DNA of 64,000 nt. It comes from a virus. Made by a program: the position numbers and the translations under genes. Below are positions 13,700 to 60,371 of the stretch, one piece after another; position 1 is the stretch's first letter; each line of letters opens with the position of its first letter. Where the stretch lies: positions 1-64,000 of IMG/VR virus record IMGVR_UViG_3300009702_000026. One strand, written 5' to 3'. The notes beneath the pieces are model-generated. The model had not been told where the DNA came from. It made no database searches and saw only the letters and a program-made list of their open reading frames with translations.

Positions 13700-15250
13700 A
13701 TGGCAAGCAGTAAGAAGGCAAGAGACGCCGAGGCGGCACCCGACCTCGACAAGCTCGGCAAGCACGGGATCCTCCAGGTCGCTGCGGAACGGGTCGACGG
13801 TGTTCGGGTCCGCGACAAGATCGTGGACGTCCAGCACTCGAAGCAGACGAAGCAGATCACGTTGCCCGACGGCATGGCTGCGGACGACGCGATCGTCTGG
13901 CTGATGCGGAAGGACCACGAGGAGAACAGAATCGTCACGATCAAGGAGTACGTGGATGCGTACCCCCTCGATGGTGCCTACGCGCTGGCGAAGGCGATGG
14001 CGCGCACCTACGGGTGGACGAACCTGATCCCGACCCCCGGCTTCTTCGGGCCCAACCCGCCCGAGATGGTCGGCGTTCAGATCAGCCCCGACTCGAACGA
14101 CGTCGTGCAGGTCCCGTGGGGCCGCATGGAGGTCCCCGGCGTCGATGGCTTCATCCAGTGCGGGATGTTCCTCAAGGACAACCTGCGACCCGTCTTCCTG
14201 ATCACCGGTCAGGTGAAGAGGAAGCACGAGAAGGAGATCAGCAAGCTCGCTCAGTCCTGTCGTGACATCGTGCGCGACGAGAGCATCTACCGGGGCGAGG
14301 CGATCCGAGTCCACTTCCCCGACCCCGAGGAGGCCCAACCCGACGACTTCAACCCGAGGTTCATCGACCTCTCGGGCGTGAAGGCGGAAGAGCTGATCTT
14401 CAAGAAGGACACGATGGACCTGATCAGGACCAACCTGTTCACCCCCATCGAGAAGACGCAGCTTTGCCGCGACCACGGTATCCCGTTGAAGCGCGGGGTC
14501 CTGCTCGCCGGCCCCTACGGCGTCGGCAAGACGCTCACGGCCCACGTCGCCGCGAAGAAGTGCCAGGACAACGGCTGGACCTTCATCTATCTCGATCACA
14601 TCGAGGACCTCCAGGCTGCGATCTACTTCGCGCAGCAATACAGCCCGGCCATGGTCTTCGCGGAGGACATCGATCGCCTCGTCGCCACCGATCGGGACGA
14701 CAAGGTCAACGCGATCCTCAACGTCATCGACGGCGTGGACACCAAGCACTCCGAGGTGCTCATCGCGCTGACGACGAACCACGTCGACAAGATCAACCAA
14801 GCGCTCCTGCGCCCCGGTCGACTCGATGCGGTGGTCTCGGTCGGTCCGCCCGACGCTGAGGCCGCACAGCGACTCGTGCGCCAGTACGGGCGAGGGCTCG
14901 TGGCGAGCGAGGAGGACCTCACGAAGGTGGGCGACAAGCTCGCGGGCAACATCCCAGCGGTGATCCGCGAGGTGGTCGAGCGCGCGAAGCTGGCTGCCAT
15001 CGACCGGACCAACCCCGGAGAGCCCTTCTCGATCTCGGGGTCCGACCTCGTGATCTCGGTGGACTCGATGCTCACTCATCTGGAGCTGCTCGCGCCTCAG
15101 CCCGAGGACGCTCGCTCCGACGTCGAGAAGGCCGCCGAGACCCTCGGAGAGCGCGTGCTCACCGGTATGGTCCAGGCTGCCGAGCAGCGGGTCAGTGGCG
15201 TCGCCAAGAAGCAGAACCACGGCTCCAACGGAGCCTCCGTCTCTGCGTGA
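13700..15250 (+). CDS. AAA+ ATPase of the classical AAA (FtsH/CDC48-like) group
   Basis: A 516-residue protein. The ATPase core begins near residue 260: GVLLAGPYGVGKT (Walker A), PAMVFAEDIDRL (Walker B, DE/ED acidic pair), ALTTNHVDKIN (sensor 1 region) and LLRPGRLDAVVSVG (arginine-finger/second-region-of-homology signature). The first ~250 residues are a substrate-specific domain not recognised. No transmembrane segment or protease motif is present, so it is a stand-alone unfoldase/remodeller rather than FtsH. It ends in a strong triple-hairpin terminator, making it the last gene of its unit. A role in DNA transactions or assembly is possible but not shown. Confidence 0.85.
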   Translation: MASSKKARDAEAAPDLDKLGKHGILQVAAERVDGVRVRDKIVDVQHSKQTKQITLPDGMAADDAIVWLMRKDHEENRIVTIKEYVDAYPLDGAYALAKAMARTYGWTNLIPTPGFFGPNPPEMVGVQISPDSNDVVQVPWGRMEVPGVDGFIQCGMFLKDNLRPVFLITGQVKRKHEKEISKLAQSCRDIVRDESIYRGEAIRVHFPDPEEAQPDDFNPRFIDLSGVKAEELIFKKDTMDLIRTNLFTPIEKTQLCRDHGIPLKRGVLLAGPYGVGKTLTAHVAAKKCQDNGWTFIYLDHIEDLQAAIYFAQQYSPAMVFAEDIDRLVATDRDDKVNAILNVIDGVDTKHSEVLIALTTNHVDKINQALLRPGRLDAVVSVGPPDAEAAQRLVRQYGRGLVASEEDLTKVGDKLAGNIPAVIREVVERAKLAAIDRTNPGEPFSISGSDLVISVDSMLTHLELLAPQPEDARSDVEKAAETLGERVLTGMVQAAEQRVSGVAKKQNHGSNGASVSA

Positions 15251-15252
15251 GG

Positions 15253-15278
15253 ACCTGCGGGCGCCCCTGCCCGCAGGT
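15253..15278 (+). terminator. First of three tandem hairpins after the AAA gene
   Basis: Perfect 10-bp stem ACCTGCGGGC / GCCCGCAGGT with a six-base loop. No T tract follows. Confidence 0.5.
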
Positions 15279-15288
15279 GTGCCTAGAG

Positions 15289-15321
15289 CGCCCGGAGGTA
15301 GGACCATCCTGCCTCCGGGCG
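15289..15321 (+). terminator. Second tandem hairpin
   Basis: Ten-bp perfect outer stem CGCCCGGAGG / CCTCCGGGCG, extended by AGGA/TCCT inside. Very stable; no T tract directly after it. Confidence 0.5.
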
Positions 15322-15333
15322 TTCACTTTGATG

Positions 15334-15360
15334 AGGCCGGCCTTCCCAGGTCGGCCTTTT
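15334..15360 (+). terminator. Rho-independent terminator
   Basis: Stem AGGCCGGCCT / AGGTCGGCCT (one wobble) with loop TCCC, followed by TTTTCTC. The best terminator in the window. Confidence 0.8.
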
Positions 15361-20072: not shown

Positions 20073-20785
20073 CCGACCAAGAAACCCCGGACCTCCTCAA
20101 GATGATCGAAGCTCTCCGCGCTGCGGGCGTTCCGATCCCCGACGACGCCAACCCTGTCCAGCTCCTCACAGCCCTGCTCGCGGCAAAGGCCGAGCAGAAG
20201 GGGGAGGACTCCTGGACTCACTGGGAGGGCTTCCCCAGCCTCCTCGGGGATGACTTCCCGATCGTCCTCCTCGATGACATGATGAAGAACGAGTACCTCC
20301 CCAAGTTCCGACGCAATCTCTTGGAGCACGGGTCGTTGCAGCCCGTCGGCTTCGTCTTCGCCCGGCACGCCCCTTACAGCCCCACCCGGAGGGTGAAGCT
20401 GGGGCAGGCCCGTCACATCATCCTCGGGGCCCAGGGGTCCTTTGAGCCGGAAGAGAAGCAGAAGTTCGCGCACGCCCTGAAGCTGCTCGCATGGAAGACC
20501 GACGCGGCGGCCGTGGTCTTTGGATGCGAGGCCTGGATGTTGAAGCGCGTCGAGGCCGAAATGGCTGAGGAGTATGAGGGCCGCCTCGACGAGCACCCTA
20601 ATCGCATCGAGGTGATCATGGTCCACTACGAGCGCGAGCGTGAGTGTGCCTACTACACCGCGCAGATCCATCGAGACGGGGAGGGCAACATCGACCACCT
20701 AGACGACTGGGAGTGCCAACCAGAGGCCTCGCAGGCTACGGGCCGTTTCACCCACTTCATGCTCCAGAACGAGGTGCGACCGTGA
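20069..20785 (+). CDS. Hypothetical protein
   Basis: A 238-residue alpha/beta protein. No motif recognised. Notable stretches are WTHWEGFPSLLGDDFPIVLLDDMM and VVFGCEAWMLKRVEAEMAEEYEGRLDEHPNRIEVIMVHYE, which suggest a small enzyme-like or binding fold. It is sandwiched between 19494-20072 and the MoxR-type ATPase with four-base overlaps, so it may serve the MoxR-VWA system, but nothing in sequence proves it. Confidence 0.65.
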   Translation: MTDQETPDLLKMIEALRAAGVPIPDDANPVQLLTALLAAKAEQKGEDSWTHWEGFPSLLGDDFPIVLLDDMMKNEYLPKFRRNLLEHGSLQPVGFVFARHAPYSPTRRVKLGQARHIILGAQGSFEPEEKQKFAHALKLLAWKTDAAAVVFGCEAWMLKRVEAEMAEEYEGRLDEHPNRIEVIMVHYERERECAYYTAQIHRDGEGNIDHLDDWECQPEASQATGRFTHFMLQNEVRP

Positions 20786-21603
20786 TCACCATCGAACGGC
20801 TCCAGGCGGAGGACTTCACGCCCGACACCTCCCTGACCTACATCGACACGAACCAGCTCTATCCGATCTTCGACAAGCTCGCGTTCCGGGCGAACGTCAT
20901 CCTGGTTGGACCGAAGGGCATCGCGAAGACGCTCAGCATCGCCTCATGGGCTGCGCAGCGTAGTTGCCCGATCCTCACGTTCGACTGCTCGGAGGACGTG
21001 CGGCGTAGCCACCTGATCGGGAACTACATCTTGCGCGGGGACGAGACGCCGTTCGTGCTCGGACCCCTGACCACGGCGATCGAGATCGCGAACGAGCGGG
21101 GGGAGTGCATCCTCTGCCTTGAGGAGATCAACGCCCTGACACCGCAGATGCAGAAGGTGCTCAACCCCCTCGGCGACTTCCGGCGACGCATCGAGGTGCC
21201 GGAGTGCAGCAAGGTCTTCCGCCTGCGTGAGGACGCGCGGCTCTGGCTCTGCGGCACGATGAACACTTCGGTCTACGGGGGCGTGTACGAGTTGAACGAG
21301 GACCTCAAGAGCCGCTTCCGAATGGTCCCTCTCAACTACCCGACCAAGAAAGCTGAGGAGGCGATCATCGCGGAGGTCGTAAAGGCCTCGACGGTTCCGA
21401 AGGCGACCATCAAGTCGATCCTCACGCTCGCGCACGAGACTCGGCAGAAGAGCCTCGACTACGCACTGTCCACGCGCGACGTGGTGCAGATCATCGAGGA
21501 CATCGAGGCCTCGGACTTGGACACGGCGCTGCGCTTGGCGAGCGGCAAGTTCGAGGGCCAGGACCGGGACGTGTTCCTCAAGCGCGCGAAGTCGACCTTC
21601 TGA
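20782..21603 (+). CDS. MoxR/CobS-like AAA+ ATPase
   Basis: A 273-residue protein from GTG 20782 (GTGA overlap with the preceding stop); the upstream in-frame codons lie in the previous gene. Walker A is GPKGIAKT near residue 42, Walker B is CLCLEEINALTPQMQ, and ELNEDLKSRFRMVPL carries the arginine-finger segment. This is the layout of MoxR-family ATPases, including CobS. Such proteins act with a VWA-domain partner, encoded immediately downstream, to remodel or insert metal into a target. Phage-borne CobS/CobT-like pairs are known in other large phages with no proven target. Confidence 0.88.
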   Translation: MITIERLQAEDFTPDTSLTYIDTNQLYPIFDKLAFRANVILVGPKGIAKTLSIASWAAQRSCPILTFDCSEDVRRSHLIGNYILRGDETPFVLGPLTTAIEIANERGECILCLEEINALTPQMQKVLNPLGDFRRRIEVPECSKVFRLREDARLWLCGTMNTSVYGGVYELNEDLKSRFRMVPLNYPTKKAEEAIIAEVVKASTVPKATIKSILTLAHETRQKSLDYALSTRDVVQIIEDIEASDLDTALRLASGKFEGQDRDVFLKRAKSTF

Positions 21604-21604
21604 G

Positions 21605-23530
21605 ATGGCAGGCGCGTCCGAGAAGGCGCTGGCCTACAAGACGGTAGAGATCTTCGCGGGCATCACCGGCCGAAAGCTCTACTTGAAGGACGGGTCAGTC
21701 CCCAAGACGAACGGGTGGGTCATCGAGGTCCCCATGAGGGACCCCGACATGTACACCCTCGTGGAGCACGAAATCAGTCACCCGCTGTTCGGCTCCGATC
21801 CCACTGCCAAGGCGCTCTTCGTCGAGGAGTACTCCAGGAAGATTACCCTCGTGGCTGCGCGGCGCGAAGTCCACCTCAATCGTCGATCGCTGCGAGTCGC
21901 ACTCAACCTCTTCGTGGGCATCCTCGAAGACGAGCGGGTGATCTCCCTCTGGGGCTTGCTCTACCGCGGCTCCGAGCGACGCCTTCGCGAGATGGCAGCG
22001 ACGGACACGGAGACGCAGCTCCCGCACGCACACGAGAACCTAGTCAGCCAGTTCGCGGCAATCGCGGGGGGCCACGACCCGGGAGAGGGCAAGCTCCGGC
22101 GATTCGAGCCCTACTTCCGGGAGGCTCTTCGCAAGGTCCACCTGCGGGACTTCACGGCGACGCTGATCACGGCCAAGTGGCTGGTCACGATGCTTGTGTC
22201 GGAAGTCATTCGGCAGAGCCGGGGCGAACCGCCGCCCAAGGACGGCGACTCCTTCGACGGTGCGAGCCCGGCACCGGGCCTGGGGCCCCCTGAGAGCGGC
22301 TCTGAGGGCTCCCAGGCTCTATCAGACCCGGATACCGCTCAGGAGGACGAGGACGGCCCTGGAGGCCACGGAGAGGGTCCCTGGCAGCCTCCCGAGGTGA
22401 AGGCCAGCGCGGATGAGCGCACAGAGGCCCTCCAGAGCATGGTGGACCAGCTCGGAGCAGCCCCGCGCCAGCTCCGTGAGCGCTTCGATGACTTCGAGGA
22501 ATCCAAGTACAAGAACCGGTGGGCGGAGCAGGAAGCAAAGCGCAAGGCGAAGCGTGCGATGGACGCCTCGGTCAAGGATGGAGACCAGCTCGAACGCAAG
22601 CTCGAACAGTCCCGCGCGAAGATGCGGGAGATCATCCATCGGGTGCGCACGGCGACCGCCAACGTCGAGATCCAAGACGACCGCATTCGGCGCGAAGCCT
22701 TCGCCAAGGTGACCTTCACTGACATCCGGCCTGAAGACATCACGACGGAGGTCCGCATGTCGGTCGAGGATGAGGACACGGTGCGGCGACTGTGCGCGAT
22801 GTTCATCCGCGTCATGGGCCGGAGGAAATCGGTGCTCGATCACCAGGGCATGGCGATCGACATACCGGCTTACATCGAGCGCCGACTGACCCACACCGCG
22901 CTGCCCGTTTTCAAGTCGGAGGGCTCCGGTCGGGGCTTCAAGGCGCTCGTCCTGATCGACCGCAGCTCCTCGATGTCGGGGGCTCGCACGAAGCAGGCGG
23001 AGCGAGCTTGTCGAATCGTCTCCCGTGCGCTCGACTTCCCGTTCGTCGAGACCTGCATCTGGGGGTTTCAGGGCCTTGGCAGAAACGAAGTCGGAATCAC
23101 CCGCTTCGAGAAGGGGGTCGAGGTCTTCGACACGTCGAAGAGCCGCGTGAAGGGGTTCACGCCACTGCACATCGCCATGCGTGTGGCTGCGAACTTCCTC
23201 CAAGAGGGGAACGAGGTGAAGCAGCTCATCGTGATCTCCGACGGCTTCCCGACCCACGTCTCGACCCGAGGGCTGTCCAGCACCAAGGCCCTGATCAACT
23301 TCGTGCGCACGGAGGTGTACCGTGCGCGAAGGCTGGGCATCCATGTCACCGGCGTCATGATCGGTACGGACTCGGCTCGGGGAGGGGTGAGAGGCGAGGT
23401 CTCTCCAGCCATGATGCGTAGGATGTTCGGAGGGACGAGGTACTGGCGCCTCATGGGAGGGCGCAATCTCAATCAAGGGCTCGTGCAGCTCGTCTCGCAG
23501 TCCTTCGTGGACTATCTGAGATCGCCATGA
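21605..23530 (+). CDS. VWA-domain protein, CobT-like partner of MoxR ATPase
   Basis: A 641-residue protein starting one base after the MoxR gene stop. The N-terminal ~200 residues contain HEISHPLFGSD and VGILEDERV, a pair that resembles the HE-x-x-H ... N/LED arrangement of CobT-like metallopeptidase-derived domains. Residues ~220-265 are an acidic, proline-rich linker. Residues ~440-641 form a VWA domain: VLIDRSSSMSGARTK (MIDAS DxSxS), GFTPLHIAMRVA (threonine), VISDGFPTH (aspartate). Typically binds the ATPase. The target in this phage is unknown. Confidence 0.88.
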   Translation: MAGASEKALAYKTVEIFAGITGRKLYLKDGSVPKTNGWVIEVPMRDPDMYTLVEHEISHPLFGSDPTAKALFVEEYSRKITLVAARREVHLNRRSLRVALNLFVGILEDERVISLWGLLYRGSERRLREMAATDTETQLPHAHENLVSQFAAIAGGHDPGEGKLRRFEPYFREALRKVHLRDFTATLITAKWLVTMLVSEVIRQSRGEPPPKDGDSFDGASPAPGLGPPESGSEGSQALSDPDTAQEDEDGPGGHGEGPWQPPEVKASADERTEALQSMVDQLGAAPRQLRERFDDFEESKYKNRWAEQEAKRKAKRAMDASVKDGDQLERKLEQSRAKMREIIHRVRTATANVEIQDDRIRREAFAKVTFTDIRPEDITTEVRMSVEDEDTVRRLCAMFIRVMGRRKSVLDHQGMAIDIPAYIERRLTHTALPVFKSEGSGRGFKALVLIDRSSSMSGARTKQAERACRIVSRALDFPFVETCIWGFQGLGRNEVGITRFEKGVEVFDTSKSRVKGFTPLHIAMRVAANFLQEGNEVKQLIVISDGFPTHVSTRGLSSTKALINFVRTEVYRARRLGIHVTGVMIGTDSARGGVRGEVSPAMMRRMFGGTRYWRLMGGRNLNQGLVQLVSQSFVDYLRSP

Positions 23531-24012
23531 GTGGCAGGCGTGCGGCCCGGCCGCTCGTTTACGAGGGGCCGAAGGGGTTGTGCGGTTGCTGCGATCGGAA
23601 GACGGAGATCGCCATCGGCTCCACCGGGGGTGAGCCCTCCTTGGCAACGTGGATAGTCGCGGAGGAAACCCTGCGAGTCGTCTACTCGGGCATAGGCCCC
23701 CTCATCCGCTCGAAGCAGACCAAGGACGGGCGGACCCGCTACTACCTCTACGACCCTCAGGCGTTCATGACCGGGCGCCCGATCCGAAGGAACAAGCTCT
23801 ACTTCGTCGAAGGCGACGAGGGCAGCATCGCAGGACCGTTTGGCCCAGAAGGGCTCAAGGTCTTCTTCGGTCAGGTCGGCCGTGACGACCAACGCATCTA
23901 CGTGGTCTCGACAACCCATCGAAGCCTCAGCATCATTCGCAACTCCCCCCTCCAGCACTCGACTACCGAGGCGCTGGACGCCGTGGAGGGGGACGGAGAG
24001 GACCTGTACTGA
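23527..24012 (+). CDS. Hypothetical protein downstream of MoxR-VWA pair
   Basis: A 161-residue protein in ATGA overlap with the VWA gene. Beta-rich with a GLCGCCDRKTEIAIGS start. It could be the third component of the MoxR-VWA system; no family seen. Confidence 0.6.
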   Translation: MSGRRAARPLVYEGPKGLCGCCDRKTEIAIGSTGGEPSLATWIVAEETLRVVYSGIGPLIRSKQTKDGRTRYYLYDPQAFMTGRPIRRNKLYFVEGDEGSIAGPFGPEGLKVFFGQVGRDDQRIYVVSTTHRSLSIIRNSPLQHSTTEALDAVEGDGEDLY

Positions 24013-24152
24013 TGAGCCTTTGGGAATACACAAGAGTCGCGCTGCCGGCGCTCGCAGGGGCGTTCGTCGCGACGTTCGTGCTGGTCGAGGTCCTCAACGG
24101 GGTCTGGTACGTGGTGAAGCGCCTGCGACCACGTGGTCGTGACGAGGGGTAG
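24012..24152 (+). CDS. 46-residue single-pass membrane protein
   Basis: Starts at ATG 24012, sharing one base with the preceding TGA, and ends TAG 24150-24152. The peptide has a short N terminus (MSLWEYTR), one hydrophobic stretch of about 20 residues (VALPALAGAFVATFVLVEVL) and a basic end (VVKRLRPRGRDEG), so an N-out/C-in single membrane span is likely. It could be a holin-like or membrane-anchoring peptide. One 16-base palindromic repeat (24125-24140) lies in its C-terminal codons. Confidence 0.6.
   Translation: MSLWEYTRVALPALAGAFVATFVLVEVLNGVWYVVKRLRPRGRDEG
24125..24140. repeat. 16-base palindromic repeat, copy 2
   Basis: GCGACCACGTGGTCGT in the membrane-peptide gene, read in another frame than copy 1, so it is not a shared protein motif. 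Confidence 0.7.
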
Positions 24153-24193
24153 GGGGCTGGTCAGACCTGGAGCCCCGCTCTACGGAAACTCAT

Positions 24194-24775
24194 ATGGGAG
24201 ACAGGTTCAGCCTCACTGACGAAGAGTTCCGCAAACGCTACCCCGCGCTCTGGAAGCGGCATGAGCGGAAGAACGCCTCCAAGCCGCCCCCGCCGCCGAC
24301 ACGAGTCGAGAAAGCGGTCGTCGCTCGAAAGAGGAACCGCTCGAAGGTCGAGCGCCATGGGTGCCGATGGACCGAGGAAGAGGATCACTACCTCTGGAAG
24401 CACTGGGGTGTGCGCAGTTTGGAGGTCATGGGTCGAGAGTTGGGTCGATCCGGTAGGGCCCTTTACGAGCGAGCGCGGGATCTCGATCTGCGCATTGAAC
24501 GCGAAGACATGTCCCTCTCCGCTTTTGCAAAGTACTCAGGCTTCGACCGATCGAAGGTCCGCAACGCCTGTACGGTGCTAGGGCTCAAACTCAGGCGCGG
24601 AACAAGGGCCCGTAAATGGAAGAAGTCCGCCTCCAGGAAGGCCTCCGGATCAAGTCGAACGACCAACCGTTTGTTCGTCCCGATCGACATCCAAGAAGAG
24701 CTGCTCGCGTTCCTCCTGGAGAACGCTGAGAAGCGTATTCAGGTACGGCGCCGGACGCGCTCGAAACCGCCTTGA
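24194..24775 (+). CDS. SANT/Myb-like DNA-binding protein
   Basis: A 193-residue, very basic protein. Residues ~57-98 (CRWTEEEDHYLWKHWGVRSLEVMGRELGRSGRALYERARDLDL) have the SANT/Myb-like three-helix pattern with the spaced W residues and a second-helix 'GRS..A...RA..L' typical of phage GcrA/SANT-like DNA binders. A second HTH-like segment (LSAFAKYSGFDRSKVRNACTVLGLKL) follows. A probable sequence-specific regulator or DNA-structuring protein. Confidence 0.7.
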   Translation: MGDRFSLTDEEFRKRYPALWKRHERKNASKPPPPPTRVEKAVVARKRNRSKVERHGCRWTEEEDHYLWKHWGVRSLEVMGRELGRSGRALYERARDLDLRIEREDMSLSAFAKYSGFDRSKVRNACTVLGLKLRRGTRARKWKKSASRKASGSSRTTNRLFVPIDIQEELLAFLLENAEKRIQVRRRTRSKPP

Positions 24776-24828
24776 CTATCCCTCGCTATGTGAGAAGGTG
24801 GACGCCTGCTTCAGCCCTGCGAGGCTGA
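24772..24828 (+). promoter_or_regulatory. Promoter P7 (weak -10) with leader hairpin
   Basis: TTGACT 24772-24777 followed by the same ATCCCTCGCTA word as P2 and P3, but the -10 position reads GAAGGT, a poor match. Perfect hairpin 24811-24828 (TCAGCC, loop CTGCGA, GGCTGA), then GGAAGGAGG and ATG 24849. Included because the cassette layout is conserved even though the -10 is degenerate. Confidence 0.5.
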
Positions 24829-24848
24829 TGGAAGGAGGACGGGAATCG

Positions 24849-25136
24849 ATGAAGCTGATCGTGTTGAGCGAGTCGGAGTTCAAGGACATCCGACACTTCG
24901 TCGAGACCGGACGGCGCCTTGAAGATCTTCACGCCACCGACGCTTGGGTAGAGAAAGCTCTGGAGCGATGCGCATCGGAGATCGCGGAACTGGAGGACCG
25001 AATCGACATCTTCCAGGAGACCGCTGAGACGTGCGTGAACGCTCGTTCTGCGGGGCTGAAGATCTACAGGGCGTGGCGCAAGGGCGAGCTGACCAACGAC
25101 ATGATGAAGGCGTTCGGGAAGGTGTTGCGCTCGTGA
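24849..25136 (+). CDS. Small helical hypothetical protein
   Basis: A 95-residue helical protein. Its heptad pattern (WVEKALERCASEIAELEDRIDIFQETAETC) suggests a coiled coil. ATG 24849 follows AAGGAGG by 10 bases. Unrecognised. Confidence 0.65.
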   Translation: MKLIVLSESEFKDIRHFVETGRRLEDLHATDAWVEKALERCASEIAELEDRIDIFQETAETCVNARSAGLKIYRAWRKGELTNDMMKAFGKVLRS

Positions 25137-25233
25137 CCGATCCGAGTAAGGCTCCGGGCTCATACCACATAGCCGCTCGGATCTCGTTTGCGCCCTCGCG
25201 CTCGATCCTGGGACCGGCCTATAGGAGGTTCGT

Positions 25234-26244
25234 ATGAGACCTGTCGCCGTTGCGATCGCCGCGCTTCTCTGCGCGTGTCAGCCCATCGAGTCAGCCGACC
25301 CCGTTGAGTCCGAGTTCCTGCCCGAGTCCGGGAGTCCGCGCGACGGGTCTCCCAACGAGGACGAAAACTTCCTCACCGAAGAGGCCGAAGCCGGAGAGCC
25401 CCTTCCCGCGGCTGCGACCATCCCGGCCAACATCGCTGCGAGCACTGCCGGCGCCCGGCGCACCCAACGCCTTCGCGAGGGTCGTCTCCCAGTTCCTACC
25501 GATCGGGACGAGCTGCGAGCGCGCACCATCGAGGCGTTACTCCGTGTTGCGATCAGCGAGGAGGGCTGGGCGAACGAGATCGGCATGAAGGCGATATGGC
25601 AGGTGGCCCGGGCTACCCGCGGTTGCCTCGACGAGAACAACGTCCACGTCTCCTGTCGTGACCCCCGTTCAACCCGTCGTCGGGCGCCTCCCCTTGCAGG
25701 CCTCTGGCGCAACTCCCCGAGAGCGACTGGAAATCTCCCGCCCGTGGGTCGCCGTGGGGCGTGGGTCCGTTCGATCACTGTCGACTGCGAGCAGCCCACC
25801 GAGTGGCCCAAGCGAACGCGCCGAGGGTCCCCCTACGCGCAGTGGGTCAGCTACCAGGGCCACTGCGAGGACCTGGTGCGAGCCGCCGAGGCGATCGTGG
25901 ATGGCAAGGACCACATCCAGGCGTGCCCTTCAGGTTCGCGCCCGATCGCGTGGGGATGCGATCCCGAGCGCCGACGAGCCATCCGCGAGGTGCTCGGCCG
26001 CAACCGCCCGGTCAACGGCTGCAACGACTCCCCGATCGCGAGGCGTCGTCAACTCCAGCGGCTCGACTGCGGGGAGACGGAGAACGCCTACTGGTGCCGA
26101 CCGGGGACTCCCCACTGCGGCACCCTACCAGCGTCGGAACGAGCGCTTCGGAGCCTCGACCCTGAGGAGGGGGGCAGCGAAGATCGTGCGGAGGGCGAAA
26201 ACTCCACGGATACGGGCTTGACTCAGGAGGTCATGTCGTCGTAA
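25234..26244 (+). CDS. Secreted lipoprotein with lysozyme/SleB-like region
   Basis: A 336-residue exported protein. MRPVAVAIAALLCACQPIES is a signal peptide ending in a lipobox-like LCAC, so lipidation at C15 is likely. A disordered acidic linker follows. Residues ~90-260 contain ISEEGWANEIGMKAIWQVARATRG, then a WVRSITVDCEQPTEW stretch, and a helix EDLVRAAEAIVDG, an order that resembles SleB-type cell-wall hydrolases and lytic transglycosylases, with a candidate catalytic glutamate. Ten-odd cysteines may form disulfides, fitting an extracytoplasmic site. Cell-wall entry, lysis or superinfection exclusion are possible roles. AGGAGG precedes ATG 25234. Family assignment is tentative. Confidence 0.6.
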   Translation: MRPVAVAIAALLCACQPIESADPVESEFLPESGSPRDGSPNEDENFLTEEAEAGEPLPAAATIPANIAASTAGARRTQRLREGRLPVPTDRDELRARTIEALLRVAISEEGWANEIGMKAIWQVARATRGCLDENNVHVSCRDPRSTRRRAPPLAGLWRNSPRATGNLPPVGRRGAWVRSITVDCEQPTEWPKRTRRGSPYAQWVSYQGHCEDLVRAAEAIVDGKDHIQACPSGSRPIAWGCDPERRRAIREVLGRNRPVNGCNDSPIARRRQLQRLDCGETENAYWCRPGTPHCGTLPASERALRSLDPEEGGSEDRAEGENSTDTGLTQEVMSS

Positions 26245-26269
26245 CAACATCGTCCATCCAGTTCGACCA

Positions 26270-26482
26270 GGTGCCCACCCCCGGCGAACCGAAGACTCTC
26301 AACATGCGTCATTTACTGTGCTACGATTCTGACCTCACGGGCCTTCTAGGGGTTCCGGTACGAGGACCTGAGAGCTTGGCCTAAGGGCCTGCCCGCCAAG
26401 GAGATCGACGTCACAGCGTCGGTCACCGCATGTTGGGAGTCCTCGATTCACCGGGTGGGCACCCCTAGAAGGCCCGCTCTTT
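26270..26482 (+). promoter_or_regulatory. Bistable structured leader upstream of replication initiator
   Basis: The leader has three related segments. X (26270-26308) pairs with Z (26427-26463) over 37 positions: 11 perfect pairs, a two-base bulge, then 22 standard pairs, one wobble and three C-A mismatches. Y (26338-26367) pairs with the other half of Z: 26338-26353 with 26461-26476 (16 perfect pairs), 26355-26359 with 26450-26454, and 26361-26367 with 26439-26445 (7 perfect). X-Z and Y-Z overlap, so they largely exclude each other. Y-Z hides AGAAGG (26467-26472), ten bases before ATG 26483. Two small hairpins lie inside (26375-26400 and 26406-26421). Another stem, 26471-26477 with 26485-26491, surrounds the start codon. 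Alternative: a replication origin. Confidence 0.65.
26299..26327 (+). promoter_or_regulatory. Promoter inside the leader region
   Basis: TCAACA 26299-26304, 17 bases, TGC-TACGAT (extended -10, 26319-26327). Start would be near 26334, just before segment Y, so transcripts from here would lack segment X. Confidence 0.5.
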
Positions 26483-27751
26483 ATGCGGGCCGGGAGGCCC
26501 GTATTGAAACCGTCTGACGAGAAAACTCGAAGCGAGCGCCAGCGCTTCATCAACCCCTGGCGCCGGTACGTCGGATCGTTCGTTCCGAACTGGTTGCTGT
26601 GCCGCCACGAGGTATCCGCACAGGCGAAGTTGCTCTACGCCCGCCTCGCTCAGTACGCGGGGCAGAAGGGCGTCGCATACCCCCGGCAAGACACCCTCGC
26701 CCGAGAGCTGGGCAGTCTCTCGGAGCGCACTGTGAGGCGCTACGTGGCTGAGCTGCGCGAGCACGGGCTCATTCACGTCGAAGACCGGCGGAACAAGAAC
26801 TTCCCCAACAAGTACAAGTTTTTGGACCATCCCTGGCAGCACGAGGGCGATGTCATCGATGACGATGAATCACCGATGAGTCCCCCGGATGAGCACAGGA
26901 CAGAACTGTCCTCAGGTACAGGGGGACCACAGGACAAGGTTGTCCTATCCGGACAGGACAAGGTTGTCCTCTCTAGAAGAGACTCACTAGAAGAGAATAA
27001 CTCACAAGAAGAGAATCACACTGCCGGAGCTACCCGCTCCGGCCGTATTCGGGCGAGAAAACCCCCGAAGCCTCCTCCGCGCCCGAAGGTCTTCGAGGAC
27101 ACTCCCTCCCTCGGGAGTGAAGGAGAGGACTCCTCGGGCGAAGACCCAGGAGAAGGGGCCGCAAAACCGGCCGCTCGTCCGAAAGCTCGGAGGCGCCTGA
27201 CGAAGTCCCAGAAGATCGCTGAGGAAGCCGCGGAGAGGGCCAAGGCGCAGGTCTCGGCCAACACGCAGAAGCGCTTGAAGGCTGCGGAGGTGCAGGAGCA
27301 GCGGCAGAAGAACCTGGCAAGCAAGGGTCCGAGGGATCCGGGAGTGCGGGCCTTGGAACAGCTCTGGTACGAGCTGATGGAGAGGGACCTACCATCGTTG
27401 ACTATCGCCCGCTGGGGCGGGAAGGAGCGCGGTCAAGCCCGGAAGTTGCAGGACAAATACGGCGTGCAGATCGCTCTCGATGCGCTACGCTATGTGGTAG
27501 CAAACTGGAACGGAATCAACGAGCGGATCTTCAAAGGGCGGGCGAGCCACCCCACGATCGGGATGGTTTTGAAGCTCCACGAGACGCTGGTCATCGAGGC
27601 GCAGAAGTGGTCACAGCACGAGCAAACGATCTCCGAATGGGAGGCCTGGACTAGGGAGAACCCCTACTCGCTAAACGCACCTGGAGATCTCGATGAGAGG
27701 TATCAGCGGGCGATGAAGGAGCTAGAGGCCCTCGGAATCGTAGGGTCCTGA
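26483..27751 (+). CDS. Helix-turn-helix replication initiator-like protein
   Basis: A 422-residue protein. Residues ~30-110 form a winged HTH (LLCRHEVSAQAKLLYARLAQYAGQKG, then YPRQDTLARELG-SLSERTVRRYVAELREHGLI) like DnaD/replication-initiator and phage O-type proteins. A long charged linker (~120-260) leads to a C-terminal helical domain (WYELMERDLPSLTIARWGGKERGQARKLQDKYG). It is directly followed by a DnaC-like loader and DnaB-like helicase, so it probably recognises the phage origin. ATG 26483 depends on AGAAGG in the leader; TTG 26504 with GGGAGG is an alternative start. Confidence 0.75.
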   Translation: MRAGRPVLKPSDEKTRSERQRFINPWRRYVGSFVPNWLLCRHEVSAQAKLLYARLAQYAGQKGVAYPRQDTLARELGSLSERTVRRYVAELREHGLIHVEDRRNKNFPNKYKFLDHPWQHEGDVIDDDESPMSPPDEHRTELSSGTGGPQDKVVLSGQDKVVLSRRDSLEENNSQEENHTAGATRSGRIRARKPPKPPPRPKVFEDTPSLGSEGEDSSGEDPGEGAAKPAARPKARRRLTKSQKIAEEAAERAKAQVSANTQKRLKAAEVQEQRQKNLASKGPRDPGVRALEQLWYELMERDLPSLTIARWGGKERGQARKLQDKYGVQIALDALRYVVANWNGINERIFKGRASHPTIGMVLKLHETLVIEAQKWSQHEQTISEWEAWTRENPYSLNAPGDLDERYQRAMKELEALGIVGS

Positions 27752-27769
27752 TGCTTGAAGGATGCGAAA

Positions 27770-28387
27770 ATGAGTACGGCGATGTTCAAACGGAAGCTCG
27801 ATGCGGAGGACCTGAGGCGGATGAACCTGCCGGAGGAGTTCTGGCGCACCCGCGTGGACCAAGCTCCCGAGGCTGTCCGCCCGGCTGTTGCCCGGTATCT
27901 GCGGCGAATCGACCAGATGGCCCAGCAAGGGGTGGGGCTGTTCGTCACGGGCAAGAGCGGGGTGGGCAAGAGCGCCATCGCGGCGTTGGTCGTGAAGGAG
28001 GCACGGTCGCGCGGCTACACGGCCTACTACACTTCGTTCTGGGAGCTGCGGGAGATGGTCCGATCGAAGATCATGTTCGACGACGAGACCTCGATGCTGG
28101 GACGCTGTCAGCGGGTGGATGTCCTGGTGCTGGACGGGATGCGCGAGGAGGACGCTCAGGAGAAGTGGTTCGGGCTCAAGGAGGCTGCGGAGCTGGTTCG
28201 CTATCGGGGGAACAAGCACCTCGTGACGCTCATCACGACTCAGCTCGGGTTCAAGGAGCTGAAGCGCTTCCCCTTCCGGAGTTTGCTCGATGCCAGTCAG
28301 GGGCACCTGGTCCAGTTCCCAGTCGAGGGGCCGAATCGGCACGAGCAGCGGCAGAACAACCTACGTCGCGCCGTCTTCGGCGACTGA
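27770..28387 (+). CDS. DnaC/IstB-like helicase loader ATPase
   Basis: A 205-residue AAA+ ATPase. ATG 27770 follows GAAGGA; a TTG at 27755 is an alternative. Walker A is GKSGVGKS near residue 60, Walker B VLVLDGMREEDAQEKW, and sensor-like TLITTQLGFKEL follows. This is the DnaC/DnaI/IstB arrangement; such proteins load the replicative helicase onto origin DNA. Its position between initiator and helicase genes supports this. The third motif shows a Q (TTQL) rather than the usual N (TSN). Confidence 0.85.
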   Translation: MSTAMFKRKLDAEDLRRMNLPEEFWRTRVDQAPEAVRPAVARYLRRIDQMAQQGVGLFVTGKSGVGKSAIAALVVKEARSRGYTAYYTSFWELREMVRSKIMFDDETSMLGRCQRVDVLVLDGMREEDAQEKWFGLKEAAELVRYRGNKHLVTLITTQLGFKELKRFPFRSLLDASQGHLVQFPVEGPNRHEQRQNNLRRAVFGD

Positions 28388-33001: not shown

Positions 33002-33238
33002 GTGTTGCACGTGAAAGCAGATCAGAAGCCCTGTGTGAGGTGCAAGAAGCGCCCGCAGCGGCTCAAGCACCGGTACTGCAAGGAGTGCCATGCGGAGTAC
33101 ATGCGGGAGTATCGTCGGCAGGAGAAGCTCAAGCAGAAGAAGTTGGAGATGACGCACTGCCCGCACTGCGGGAAGGCGTTGCTCGGAGAAGCACCGGAGA
33201 GCGACCATGTGGTCGCAAAGGAGATGGACAATGGCTGA
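33002..33238 (+). CDS. Small zinc-finger protein
   Basis: A 78-residue protein from GTG 33002 (or GTG 33011). Eight cysteines or histidines: CVRCKKRPQRLKHRYCKECHAEYMREYRR and HCPHCGKAL, two zinc-ribbon-like sites. Basic in the middle. Carries one 16-base palindromic repeat at 33201-33216. Overlaps the next ATG. Function unknown. Confidence 0.65.
   Translation: MLHVKADQKPCVRCKKRPQRLKHRYCKECHAEYMREYRRQEKLKQKKLEMTHCPHCGKALLGEAPESDHVVAKEMDNG
33201..33216. repeat. 16-base palindromic repeat, copy 3
   Basis: GCGACCATGTGGTCGC just before the VWA gene start. Arms GCGACCA / TGGTCGC with a two-base centre. Confidence 0.7.
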
Positions 33239-33992
33239 GGCGTACACAGACATCACGATGGTGGTGGACAAGTCGTCTTCGATGGCGAACCAGGTCAGTT
33301 CGACGATCGAGGGATTCAACACCTTCCTGCACCAACAGAAGGAGGCGGAGGGGAAGGCAACGATCACGCTGATTCAGTTCGGCAGCGACATCCAGACAGA
33401 CTACGAAGGCCTCGACGTGCAGGATGCGCCTGAGCTTTCGGAGGGGTTCTACGTCCCGAACGGTATGACGGCTCTCAACGACGCGGTCGGCTCAGCCATC
33501 CTCCAGGCTCAGAAGCGGCACCGGGCGATGGCGGAGGCGGAGCGCCCGCACAAGGTGGTCGTTGTGGTGCTCACGGACGGGCAGGAGAACCAGTCCAAGG
33601 AGTTCGCGGGCCCGCAGGGACTCCACAACTTGAAGACGCTGATCGAGCGTCAGCAAACCGAGGGTTGGGAGTTCGTTTTCCTCGGTCAGGACCTCGACGC
33701 GCAGGCGGTCGCACAGACCTATGCGATCCCTCAGGGCCAGGCGCTCTCCTACAGGGGCTCCAGTCGGGGAATCGAGCACGCCTACGTTGCAACCAGCCAC
33801 GCGATTGCGGACTCACGTATGGCGCTCAACGACGTCGTGCGAGCGCATGACGGCGACGACTTGCTGTTCATGGAGCAGGCGCGGGAGGTCTCTGTCGCGT
33901 TCCGCGACGAGGACCTCGTGAAGAACGACGAGATCGTCAACGGAGAGGCCGATGCCGCACCGAGCGCGACGACCAGCTCTTCCGGCACCTGA
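33231..33992 (+). CDS. VWA-domain protein (YegL/TerY-like)
   Basis: A 253-residue protein with a full VWA fold: VVDKSSSMANQV (MIDAS DxSxS), NGMTALNDAVG (MIDAS threonine), and VVLTDGQEN (MIDAS aspartate). VWA proteins of this type bind proteins through a divalent metal. It belongs to a different family from the CobT-like VWA at 21605. A 50-residue acidic end follows. ATG 33231 overlaps the previous gene. Confidence 0.85.
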   Translation: MAEAYTDITMVVDKSSSMANQVSSTIEGFNTFLHQQKEAEGKATITLIQFGSDIQTDYEGLDVQDAPELSEGFYVPNGMTALNDAVGSAILQAQKRHRAMAEAERPHKVVVVVLTDGQENQSKEFAGPQGLHNLKTLIERQQTEGWEFVFLGQDLDAQAVAQTYAIPQGQALSYRGSSRGIEHAYVATSHAIADSRMALNDVVRAHDGDDLLFMEQAREVSVAFRDEDLVKNDEIVNGEADAAPSATTSSSGT

Positions 33993-57563: not shown

Positions 57564-60371
57564 GTGGGAGCTGTTCAGAACGTAGTCGACCGCCTTCGTC
57601 AGGCATTTGTCCTCGACAAGGAGCGCGGCGGAGAACTACTCGCGAAGGGCTCGACCTCCCCCTCGTACCCGGACTCTGGGTATGACCTACTCCAGGCCTA
57701 TGGGTACGATGCGCTCTCGGACTACCTGCGGTTGGAGCACGACCTCCTCAGCCGCTACGTCGACTACGAGGAGATGGACGACTATCCGGAGGTGGCCTGT
57801 CTTGCGGGGGAGTCGGCGGTGTTCACCCTGGAAGGCGGCTGGCAGCGCATCGAGGCCCTCCCAGGGCAGGACTTCCATGTGTTGTCCTACGATCGGGTGA
57901 GGCGGTCGCTCGTGCCGGCTAAGGCGCGAGTGGCCCAGCGCACCGGAAAAGCAGGGCACAACAAGTCGATGGTCCGGGTCGTGCTCGATGACGGCTCAGC
58001 TATTCGCTGCACGGCCGACCACCTGTTCCTCACCAAGGAGGGGGCTTGGGTCGAGGCAGGGAAGCTCGGAACGGGCCAGCGTCTTATGCCGGGTGCTGCG
58101 CGTCTACGCGCGCTCAACGGGGCGGACGGCCTTTGCTACTGGCAGGTCCATCAGCCCCATGCGGACTCACAGGTACGGGCTGCGGATGGTCGTCGGTGGA
58201 CCTGGGTCCATCGCCTTGTAGGCGAGGAGCTGTTGCGAGTAGCGCCGGGGGCGGGCGACATTCTTCACCATCGAGACCACAACCCGCTCAACAACGCCCC
58301 ATCGAATCTGTCAGTCGAGGGCTTCGCATCTCACGCGCAGGAGCACATCGCAAAGCTCGATAATCGCGCGTACTTCCCGGAGTGGACTCCAGAACGGCGG
58401 GAAGCCCGCGCGAAGAGGATGCGAGGGAACTCCTTCTCGAAGGGCTGCAAGAGGTCCGAGGCCCACAAGGGGGCGATCGCGAAGGCGGCCAGGCGCCCGA
58501 AGAGCACGGAGCACCGTCATCGCATCGGCAAGGCGCAACCGAATAGGATCGACATCCCACGCGAGCGGGTCGAGGCGGCTATTCAGGGTGCGCCTACTCT
58601 GGCGGGTGCGGCGCGGGAGCTTGGGGTCTCGTGGTCCTGGGTGAAGCGGAAGGCGGTGCAGTGGGATCTTCAGGCCGACAGCGCCAACCATCGGGTGCTC
58701 CGGGTGGAGGTCCTTGAAGAGCGGCCGGACGTTTACGACATCGAGGTCCCGGGTTATCGGAACTTCGTGTGTAACGGGGTCGTGGTCCACAACTCCGCGG
58801 TGGACATCTACGCCGACGACGCCTCGCAGCCGGATACCTCTCTCGGGCGCACGGTGTGGGTCACGAGCAAGGATCGGACGCTCCAGGGGGTTCTCGACGA
58901 TCTGTTCCACAAGCGGCTGCGGCTCGACGAGGAAATCTGGGAGATCACTCGCAGCCTCGTGAAGTACGGCAACGACTACGAGGAGATGTTGGTCACCAAC
59001 GATGGGGTGGTTGGCCTCAACTTCCTCCCGGCGCCCACGGTGCGGCGTGTCGAGGGTCCGCGCGGGGAGCTGTACGGTTTCGTTCAGGACTTCAAGGGCC
59101 GCTTCGGGTACTCGCCTCAGGAGTTCCAGAAGATTCTCGCGCAGCGAACGGACGCGATCCGGAACATGGCTCAGCCGGGGACCGCGAAGCAGCCGGGGAA
59201 CATGCTCCAGCGGGTTTCCGCGATGGAGCCCTGGGAGGTATCGCACTTCCGTCTTCGCGGGAAGCACCGTCGGAGCATCTACGGGTACTCGGTGCTCGAA
59301 CCTGTTCGGTGGATCTGGAAGCGGCTGATGCTGCTCGAAGATGCTGCGATGATCTACCGGCTCCAGCGCGCGCCGGAGCGGTTCGCGTTCTACGTGGACG
59401 TCGGAGATCTCCCGCCCGCGGAGGCGTTGGCGTTCGTCAACAAGATCCGTCAGCAGCACAAGAAGAAGCGCTTCGTGAACCCCTCGACGGGGAAACTCGA
59501 CTTGAAGTTCGAGCCACTCAGTCAGGACGACGACTTTTACGTGCCCGTGCGCAAGGGTGTGGAAGGTACGAGGATCGAGGTCCTCGGGGGTCCGAGCTGG
59601 CAGCACATGGACGACGTCGAGTACTTCCAGAAGAAGATGTTCTCCGGGCTCAAGGTCCCGAAGGCCTATCTCGCTCAGGACGAGTCGGCGGCTCGGGCGG
59701 TGCTCTCCTCGGAGGATGTTCGGTTCGCTCGATCCGTCCTTCGGGTTCAGCGGGAGGTGAAGAACGGCCTGCGGAAGATCGCCCGTACTCACCTGGCCGC
59801 GCTGAATATCGACCCCTACGCCGTCGAGTACGACATCCACATGACGGTCCCGTCGGCGATTTTCGAGCTTGCCCAGTTGGAGGTTCGGAACGCTCGGGCG
59901 GACCTAGCGTCCCGCATGAAGGAGCACGTTTCCCTTCGCTGGGTGCTCACCAACGTCTACCAGCTCGCCGATGAGGACATCGAGACGGTCCTCAAGGAGC
60001 GCTCGGATGACATCAAGCGGGAGGGCGCGGCTACTGCCGAGGCTGAGAAGATGAGCCTCCGAGCGAACGCCGAGGTCGAGCGCGAGAACGCCGCTCAGGC
60101 CGGTGGAGGCGGTGGGGGTGGAGCGGCTCCTCGGTTCGCTCATGCGGGCACTCCCAAGGGTATGAAGCTCCTGGAGGCCAAGCTCGCTACCTTGCCCGAT
60201 CGAATCCGGCGTAGTATCTCAGAGTCCGAGATGAGCCGAGGATCACGAGAAGGCGAGAAGCGAGCCAACGACAAGTTGGACCGGCTCCTTCGATCCAACG
60301 ATCAGCAGGTACGCAGGATTCGGGAAGTTGGGGCCCTTCTACGCGACGTAGCGGACGCCACGAGGCGATGA
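57564..60371 (+). CDS. Portal protein (T4 gp20-type) with intein
   Basis: A 935-residue precursor from GTG 57564. After removal of the intein (79-410), the portal reads DDYPEVA-SAVDIYADDASQPD, the T4-type gp20 portal signature, followed by the stem/crown region (WEITRSLVKYGNDYEEMLV, FRLRGKHRRSIYGYSVLEPVRWIWK, VPKAYLAQDESAARAVLSSEDVRFARSVLRVQ). The mature form (~603 residues) is in the range of T4-like portals. It forms the ring for DNA entry and tail attachment. Confidence 0.92.
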   Translation: MGAVQNVVDRLRQAFVLDKERGGELLAKGSTSPSYPDSGYDLLQAYGYDALSDYLRLEHDLLSRYVDYEEMDDYPEVACLAGESAVFTLEGGWQRIEALPGQDFHVLSYDRVRRSLVPAKARVAQRTGKAGHNKSMVRVVLDDGSAIRCTADHLFLTKEGAWVEAGKLGTGQRLMPGAARLRALNGADGLCYWQVHQPHADSQVRAADGRRWTWVHRLVGEELLRVAPGAGDILHHRDHNPLNNAPSNLSVEGFASHAQEHIAKLDNRAYFPEWTPERREARAKRMRGNSFSKGCKRSEAHKGAIAKAARRPKSTEHRHRIGKAQPNRIDIPRERVEAAIQGAPTLAGAARELGVSWSWVKRKAVQWDLQADSANHRVLRVEVLEERPDVYDIEVPGYRNFVCNGVVVHNSAVDIYADDASQPDTSLGRTVWVTSKDRTLQGVLDDLFHKRLRLDEEIWEITRSLVKYGNDYEEMLVTNDGVVGLNFLPAPTVRRVEGPRGELYGFVQDFKGRFGYSPQEFQKILAQRTDAIRNMAQPGTAKQPGNMLQRVSAMEPWEVSHFRLRGKHRRSIYGYSVLEPVRWIWKRLMLLEDAAMIYRLQRAPERFAFYVDVGDLPPAEALAFVNKIRQQHKKKRFVNPSTGKLDLKFEPLSQDDDFYVPVRKGVEGTRIEVLGGPSWQHMDDVEYFQKKMFSGLKVPKAYLAQDESAARAVLSSEDVRFARSVLRVQREVKNGLRKIARTHLAALNIDPYAVEYDIHMTVPSAIFELAQLEVRNARADLASRMKEHVSLRWVLTNVYQLADEDIETVLKERSDDIKREGAATAEAEKMSLRANAEVERENAAQAGGGGGGGAAPRFAHAGTPKGMKLLEAKLATLPDRIRRSISESEMSRGSREGEKRANDKLDRLLRSNDQQVRRIREVGALLRDVADATRR
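57798..58793 (+). mobile_element. Intein with HNH homing endonuclease in portal protein
   Basis: Residues 79-410 of the portal precursor (332 aa). Begins CLAGESAVFTLEGGWQRIEAL, has block B IRCTADHLFLT, and ends YRNFVCNGVVVHN with S+1. An HNH motif (DILHHRDHNPLNNAPSNLSV) marks the endonuclease. Splicing residues (C1, TxxH, HN, S+1) are canonical. Confidence 0.93.

Follow-up and report, generated by a model that had tools for sequence, protein, structure and literature searches.

We propose, with somewhat more confidence than doubt, that positions 26258-26504 form a conserved structured leader RNA that controls a phage replication operon through alternative folding. One segment of this leader, Z, pairs both with a segment Y and with a more distant upstream segment X, and comparison of the sequences of six phages shows that compensatory changes have preserved both pairings. 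The leader lies in a window of 64,000 bases, the whole stretch of DNA that was analysed, which is part of the 68,254-base IMG/VR virus record IMGVR_UViG_3300009702_000026. A sequence-only reading had seen here a riboswitch or attenuator in front of the replication initiator. A leader with two competing folds was indeed found, and the predicted folds suggest that Y-Z is the likelier OFF state and X-Z the likelier ON state.

The leader region is non-coding DNA flanked on one side by a lipoprotein-like gene (25234-26244) and on the other by the replication initiator. HTH_36 and several PHROG families of replication initiation proteins match the N-terminal part of this initiator, and the genes 3' of it encode a DnaC-like loader, a DnaB helicase and a primase. 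The elements referred to throughout are as follows.

26218-26223, + strand: TTGACT, possible -35 element of P0, a putative upstream promoter that is weak in the window
26261-26289, + strand: hairpin H0, which holds the 5' part of X (GTTCG...CGAAC; arms 26261-26265 and 26285-26289)
26270-26308, + strand: segment X, the upstream competitor strand (complementary to Z; cognate rank 1 of 720; core AACATGCG at 26301-26308)
26319-26327, + strand: extended -10 motif TGCTACGAT of a putative promoter, P1, between X and Y (predicted start ~26334)
26338-26353, + strand: segment Y, the 5' arm of helix S1 (16 bp perfect; unguided consensus fold; two-sided changes in 8 of 15 pairs)
26361-26367, + strand: 5' strand of helix S2, CGAGGAC, pairing with 26439-26445 (consensus fold; two-sided changes in 4 of 6 counted pairs)
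26378-26389, + strand: inner hairpin P3 (MFE and consensus folds)
26403-26424, + strand: inner hairpin P5, GATCGACG...CGTCGGTC (MFE fold; consensus fold; matched in L064 and L059)
26427-26463, + strand: inner part of Z, the partner of X (X:Z pairing), with the linker at 26427-26438, the 3' strand of S2 at 26439-26445 and GGGTGGGC at 26453-26460
26461-26476, + strand: Z2, the 3' arm of S1 (Y pairing, consensus fold, cognate test)
26471-26491, + strand: alternative hairpin Z2-W (GGCCCGC-TCTTTAT-GCGGGCC), which excludes S1 (X:Z-state folds)
26477-26484, + strand: T-rich stretch CTCTTTAT after S1, a degenerate terminator tail (T count)
26483-26504, + strand: W-V hairpin, covering the ribosome site and the start codon's first base (fold of -17 kcal/mol)
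26492-26497, + strand: probable ribosome-binding site GGGAGG, 6 nt before TTG 26504
26504-27751, + strand: replication initiator gene (Pfam HTH_36; PHROG replication initiation protein; TTG start from comparison with L004)

The initiator probably starts at TTG 26504, with GGGAGG at 26492-26497, rather than at ATG 26483. Its homologue in L004 starts 10 residues ahead of a conserved NPWR motif, and we prefer TTG 26504 because it lies nearer to this motif (~17 residues, against ~24 for ATG 26483), as in L004, and has GGGAGG upstream. In the relatives described below, an ATG overlapping the U-run is out of frame with a downstream GTG start. The L004 start, this out-of-frame ATG and the GGGAGG-TTG 26504 pair all oppose the earlier choice of AGAAGG (26467-26472) and ATG 26483 as ribosome site and start; AGAAGG is present, but probably serves only as part of the Z2 arm. 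Several other features were recorded in passing. The DnaB-like helicase of L004 (4132-6708) carries an apparent intein at its P-loop, and the T4-like portal gene of the window (57564-60371) also contains an intein (Pfam Intein_splicing). In L017 (2418-3946), the N-terminal HTH domain of the initiator is duplicated as a small separate gene immediately 5' of the complete initiator. Upstream of the leader, at 20704-23530, the window encodes a MoxR-like ATPase beside a CobT/VWA-like protein, an ATPase-VWA pair, and another VWA-like protein is found at 33207-33992.

X, Y and Z occupy the positions first given for them, and every pairing claimed among them is present in the sequence exactly as noted. 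X-Z comprises a perfect 11-bp block (26270-26280 with 26453-26463) and a 15-bp block with one wobble (26294-26308 with 26427-26441); taken as ungapped arms, 26269-26308 and 26427-26466, the two strands are 78% complementary over 40 nt. Y-Z is built on a perfect 16-bp block (26338-26353 with 26461-26476), which is followed by CCGGT 26355-26359 with ACCGG 26450-26454 and by CGAGGAC 26361-26367 with GTCCTCG 26439-26445. The two pairings do share bases, as had been claimed, but the 16-bp block shares only 26461-26463 with X-Z, and the real competition is over the inner helices, at 26439-26454. Full X-Z and full Y-Z at the same time would be a strained pseudoknot.

Chance folding was ruled out by the shuffle z-score, the uniqueness of the repeats, the compensation counts and a leave-one-out model match. 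The folding energy of 26260-26500 is -119.8 kcal/mol, against -92.7 +/- 4.8 kcal/mol for 200 shuffled sequences (z -5.6, with none as good), and the predicted leader alone, 26334-26510, reaches a z of -6.3; the + and - strands fold about equally well. Within 24001-28000, no long inverted repeats of the type searched occur other than X-Z and Y-Z. Elsewhere in the window, the best-folding place on the + strand is 15250-15360, a strong terminator array of three GC-rich hairpins right after an AAA ATPase gene, the last of which ends in TTTT.

Direct searches with the initiator or the helicase alone returned relatives that were too few or too distant, the initiator being too divergent, and relatives were instead gathered through an alignment of the DnaC-like helicase loader (13 at 38-51% identity). 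A long hairpin stands at the same place, before the replication operon, in five distinct phages, L057, L058, L059 (= L060), L061 and L064. A scan of the whole of IMG/VR with a pattern anchored on the conserved parts recovered six records, from these five phages, plus the unrelated L074, which we discarded as a chance match. An exact-pattern search with the Y-Z block of the window had no match, and bacterial genome contigs searched for prophages carrying the element yielded none. When the window was left out and a covariance model was built on the other five phages alone, this model matched the window at 26333-26489 on the + strand with an E-value of 4.8e-8, the next match standing at 0.12. By model search, 6 of 15 related phage records have the element, each at one place only, with a match on the + strand and a weaker one on its complement; it is absent from L063, L065, L066, L067, L068, L062, L069, L012 and L011. 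Two of these, L067 and L068 (= L025 2560-2663 and L026 611-712), have another long conserved hairpin at this same position before the initiator, CTCCAGAAGCGAAG.../...CTTCGCCGCTGGAG, which may represent a second class of replication leader.

All six members have a homologous gene upstream of the element, one that was not found in those element-less relatives that were searched. In the window this is the lipoprotein-like gene at 25234-26244, to which no function was assigned and whose homologues, at 28-35% identity, were found only in leader-carrying relatives; gene and leader appear to be a linked module travelling together. A small open reading frame intervenes between leader and initiator in L059 and L061, so the element would control the head of the operon and not the initiator protein as such.

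Both pairings were followed across the six phages, since homologues that lose complementarity without compensation had been named as the observation that would speak against a switch; both proved to be compensated. RNAalifold was given six sequences only, each running from the predicted inner start of transcription to a point shortly beyond the hairpin. Its unguided consensus comprises S1, an extension of it, S2 and the hairpins P3, P4 and P5, with two-sided compensation in 19 of 46 pairs; P4 is absent in the window. Across the five counted helices, 97.9% of cells are paired, and two-sided changes affect 24 of 40 pairs, against 11.0 in shuffles and 2-4 in slid controls.

X was located upstream of the hairpin in every member. 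When all X were tested against all Z, the cognate assignment ranked first of 720, with a mean duplex energy of -50 kcal/mol against -37 kcal/mol, and the cognate assignment of Y to Z2 likewise ranked first of 720. The core helix between X and the linker has two-sided changes in all eight of its pairs, and the phages have unrelated core sequences (AACATGCG, GCATAGCT, GGTCATGA, GCAATGAC, GCTAACCG and others). The register of the core was picked for complementarity, and a linker-shuffle control was therefore added; it gave P <= 0.003 in five of the six, while the core of L064 alone was not significant. The partners of the other X blocks (GCCCA and CGAGGA-like) are Z bases that are also paired inside the Y-Z fold. 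These two-partner bases are conserved in sequence, as expected because each must satisfy two partners, whereas the single-partner core drifts freely. We read this pattern of frozen and drifting bases as favouring pairing between nucleic acids over binding sites for a protein.

A reading in which X and Z are DNA sites, either inverted sites that flank P1 and are bound by a repressor or by the initiator itself, or an origin cruciform, is unlikely, although some observations agree with it. X occupies the expected position of the P1 -35 region, and the cores of L057 and L058 are palindromic. Mismatches in X:Z show no wobble bias, with five G-U and five A-C, and the sequences therefore do not show X:Z acting as RNA rather than as DNA. 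The other four cores, however, are not palindromic and have no common sequence, X:Z spans 30-40 nt in three blocks of constant register, and S1, S2, P3 and P5 covary as RNA helices. Origin-like iterons also lie elsewhere, inside the initiator gene. A further rejected candidate was an invertible promoter, with X and Z as recombination repeats, for which they are too imperfect and variable.

The suggestion that the repeats belong to an origin is weakened by those iterons, which occur inside the initiator gene in the window and in many relatives. No iteron array was found within 26245-26500; the iterons of the window lie at 26895-26973, inside the gene. Over 26895-27019, three inverted-repeat iterons of AGGACA type precede three purine-rich repeats of CTAGAAGAGA type, and the two-part layout recurs in many relatives, with differing iteron sequences and a similar GAAGAGA-TCA motif. 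This arrangement, iterons and then purine-rich GAAGAGA-type repeats inside the initiator gene, is lambda-like. These iterons are likely to be the replication origin, and the leader is therefore probably not one. Transcription from the leader would pass through this likely origin.

The leader has no match in Rfam 15 above a family's gathering threshold, either in the window, where a relaxed threshold gave chance-level matches only, or in the relatives, which bears out the earlier remark that it belongs to no known riboswitch class. We accordingly regard it, on comparative grounds, as a new RNA family of a known kind, the replication-gene attenuator leader, in a small group of uncharacterised phages. 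The missing Rfam match also speaks against a ligand- or protein-sensing riboswitch in which occupancy of the S2/P3/P4/P5 junction would decide between Y-Z and X-Z. Such a sensor would account for a conserved core that is more elaborate than a plain terminator needs, with unpaired GCCCAAC, GACGTCAC and a GTTGGGC bulge. Conservation is nevertheless concentrated in the two-partner bases, which is explained without a ligand, and P4 is missing from the window; we consider this reading improbable. A pseudoknot between GCCCAAC and GTTGGGC in the Y-Z fold is possible, with bases that overlap P3, P4 and S1b, and is not claimed here.

The promoter motifs suggest how the two folds could be chosen. The critical extended -10 positions, TGnTAnnnT, recur in each of the six, at a distance of 10-11 nt from the Y arm on its 5' side. 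P1 is thus predicted to start a few bases before Y and to give short transcripts without X, and the leave-one-out model match begins at 26333, near this predicted start. Farther upstream, a TTGAC hexamer occurs near the stop codon of the upstream gene in six of six members, followed by CAGTAT at 17 nt in L057, L058 and L059 or by TAGGAT at 16 nt in L064. In the window, the spacing from TTGAC to the aligned CAACAT is 21 nt, which makes P0 doubtful there; X-containing RNA could instead come from read-through of the upstream gene. Strong hairpins with GCCCA(A)C at the tip occupy the place of H0 in L057, L058, L059 and L061.

At the other end of the element, the GC-rich S1 stem closes a loop of ~90-110 nt, and the 12 nt after it contain 6-8 T in the relatives and 5 in the window, a poor U-run. 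In most relatives, Y-Z with its U-run looks like a terminator, in keeping with an OFF state. That the element is a terminator or RNase III processing signal only, set between the upstream gene and the operon and with X-Z incidental, would fit this long stem and U-run, but X-Z covaries in every member, and in four of six (the window, L057, L058 and L064) the element stands directly before the initiator start with the promoter motif and ribosome site around it. We hold that simpler explanation to be very improbable.

Hairpins over the Shine-Dalgarno sequence and start comparable to W-V reach -15 to -22 kcal/mol in L057, L058, L059 and L064 and are weak in L061. This hairpin over the probable start, the promoter motif between X and Y and the U-run behind Y-Z were all missing from the earlier reading. 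RNA beginning at the inner start forms S1 in all six members, with a probability of 0.98-1.00. Co-transcriptional folding was mimicked by stepwise 3' truncation; in X-containing RNAs treated in this way, X:Z forms before the 3' arm of S1 emerges in six of six, with 13-30 Z bases held by X. S1 then displaces X:Z in L058, L059 and L061, once 12-16 nt of its 3' arm have emerged. The energies of the S1 and X:Z folds of the long RNAs, in kcal/mol, are -117.7 and -127.6 in the window, -126.9 and -124.6 in L057, -137.7 and -120.9 in L058, -124.3 and -118.5 in L059, -131.7 and -121.3 in L061, and -145.1 and -144.7 in L064. At equilibrium, S1 is thus better in five of six, by 0.4 to 17 kcal/mol, and the window alone favours X:Z, by 10 kcal/mol. 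In those five, the X:Z fold is either transient or nearly equal in energy, and X must therefore act kinetically or with a helper.

The X:Z state contains 30-34 X:Z pairs, and in the window, L057 and L059 it includes the Z2-W hairpin, for which there is no covariation support (rank 68 of 720). With S1 formed, W remains available for the hairpin that covers the ribosome site and start. The X:Z fold of the window does not make the ribosome site more open by simple unpaired probability. The linker, 26427-26438, is partnerless in the consensus Y-Z fold.

From these predictions we tentatively put forward a two-promoter switch whose input is the 5' end of the transcript itself, a possible scheme in which inner RNA folds only into the OFF state and outer RNA adds a toehold-binding X that flips the leader ON during transcription. 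RNA from P1, starting at ~26334, would contain Y and Z without X and adopt the Y-Z fold. S1 with its U-rich stretch would then end transcription, leaving a short RNA of ~150 nt, or the start site would stay shut in the W-V hairpin. RNA from farther upstream, from P0 or by read-through of the preceding gene, would bring X, which may seize the linker as a toehold the moment the linker is transcribed, and displace the inner Y-Z helices. The freed Z2 would form the small Z2-W hairpin, preventing S1 and opening the start site. Replication would in this way be set by the 5' end of the transcript and a folding race, which a protein or small RNA could bias. The promoters, termination, closure of the ribosome site, translation and the assignment of ON and OFF are all model predictions in this scheme, and we infer the decision by 5' end and linker toehold from the promoter motif and the order of folding.

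The linker could also be exposed for another purpose. A short terminated P1 RNA might act in trans, its exposed Z linker binding X on longer transcripts of the same operon and setting termination or translation there, to give superinfection or copy-number control. The linker has no partner in the Y-Z fold, and complementarity to X is all that is conserved in it; there are precedents in IsrK, which acts on its own read-through mRNA, and in the CI RNA that blocks the P4 replication genes via seqA and seqC (PMC4825925). Predicted binding is weak, however, at -9.7 kcal/mol in the window and +0.5 to -2.4 kcal/mol in the others, with a cognate rank of 56 of 720, by a method in which kissing loops cannot be scored. 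No integrase or repressor was found among the proteins tested, so that a role in immunity is unsupported. We regard action in trans as rather unlikely.

If the two-promoter switch is true, replication would be timed by promoter choice, without a ligand, an antisense RNA or a leader peptide. The leader itself adds a structured RNA family not described before, strongly supported by compensatory changes, and its conserved three-way competition, with dual-partner Z bases frozen and single-partner bases drifting, is a clean natural example of a bistable RNA. Plasmids and satellite phage P4 offer well-known examples of RNA control over the onset of replication; to our knowledge, no case has been described in tailed phages of this kind.

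Among known systems, the pT181 and pIP501 rep leaders, the P4 CI RNA and IsrK are the closest, and none matches the leader in all defining features. A more general likeness is to trp-type attenuators, in which segments 1:2, 2:3 and 3:4 form successive exclusive hairpins; here Y:Z2, Z2:W and W:V would form such a series, ending at the control site. Unlike in trp-type attenuators, no leader peptide was found, there is an extra competitor, X, and the control site includes the ribosome site.

The leaders of pT181 repC and pIP501 repR, which serve plasmid copy-number control, likewise precede an initiator and set an upstream pre-emptor against a terminator-like hairpin before the ribosome site. In those plasmids, it is the terminator's 5' arm that the pre-emptor binds, and termination is triggered by an antisense RNA transcribed from the opposite strand (PMC5703833). 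In the phage leader, by contrast, X pairs with Z, on the 3' side, no antisense gene was identified, and the context is that of a phage, with a lambda-O-like initiator and iterons. Control of the phage P4 replication genes by CI RNA involves seqA, seqB and seqC, one RNA segment being complementary to two others of the same leader, and leads to termination (PMC4825925). Our leader resembles it in preceding phage replication genes and in having one segment complementary to two others. P4 CI and P1 C4 RNAs differ in that their targets lie both upstream and downstream, while both partners of Z are upstream; the leader also has no Rfam match, and trans action of the leader RNA is a prediction with weak binding. 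In Gifsy-1, the same promoter region gives rise to IsrK, a short terminated RNA, and to a read-through mRNA, with silent and active structures (PMC4825925). IsrK acts in trans on an antirepressor/antiterminator system, whereas in the leader described here the gene concerned is a replication initiator and two proposed 5' ends would decide the fold.
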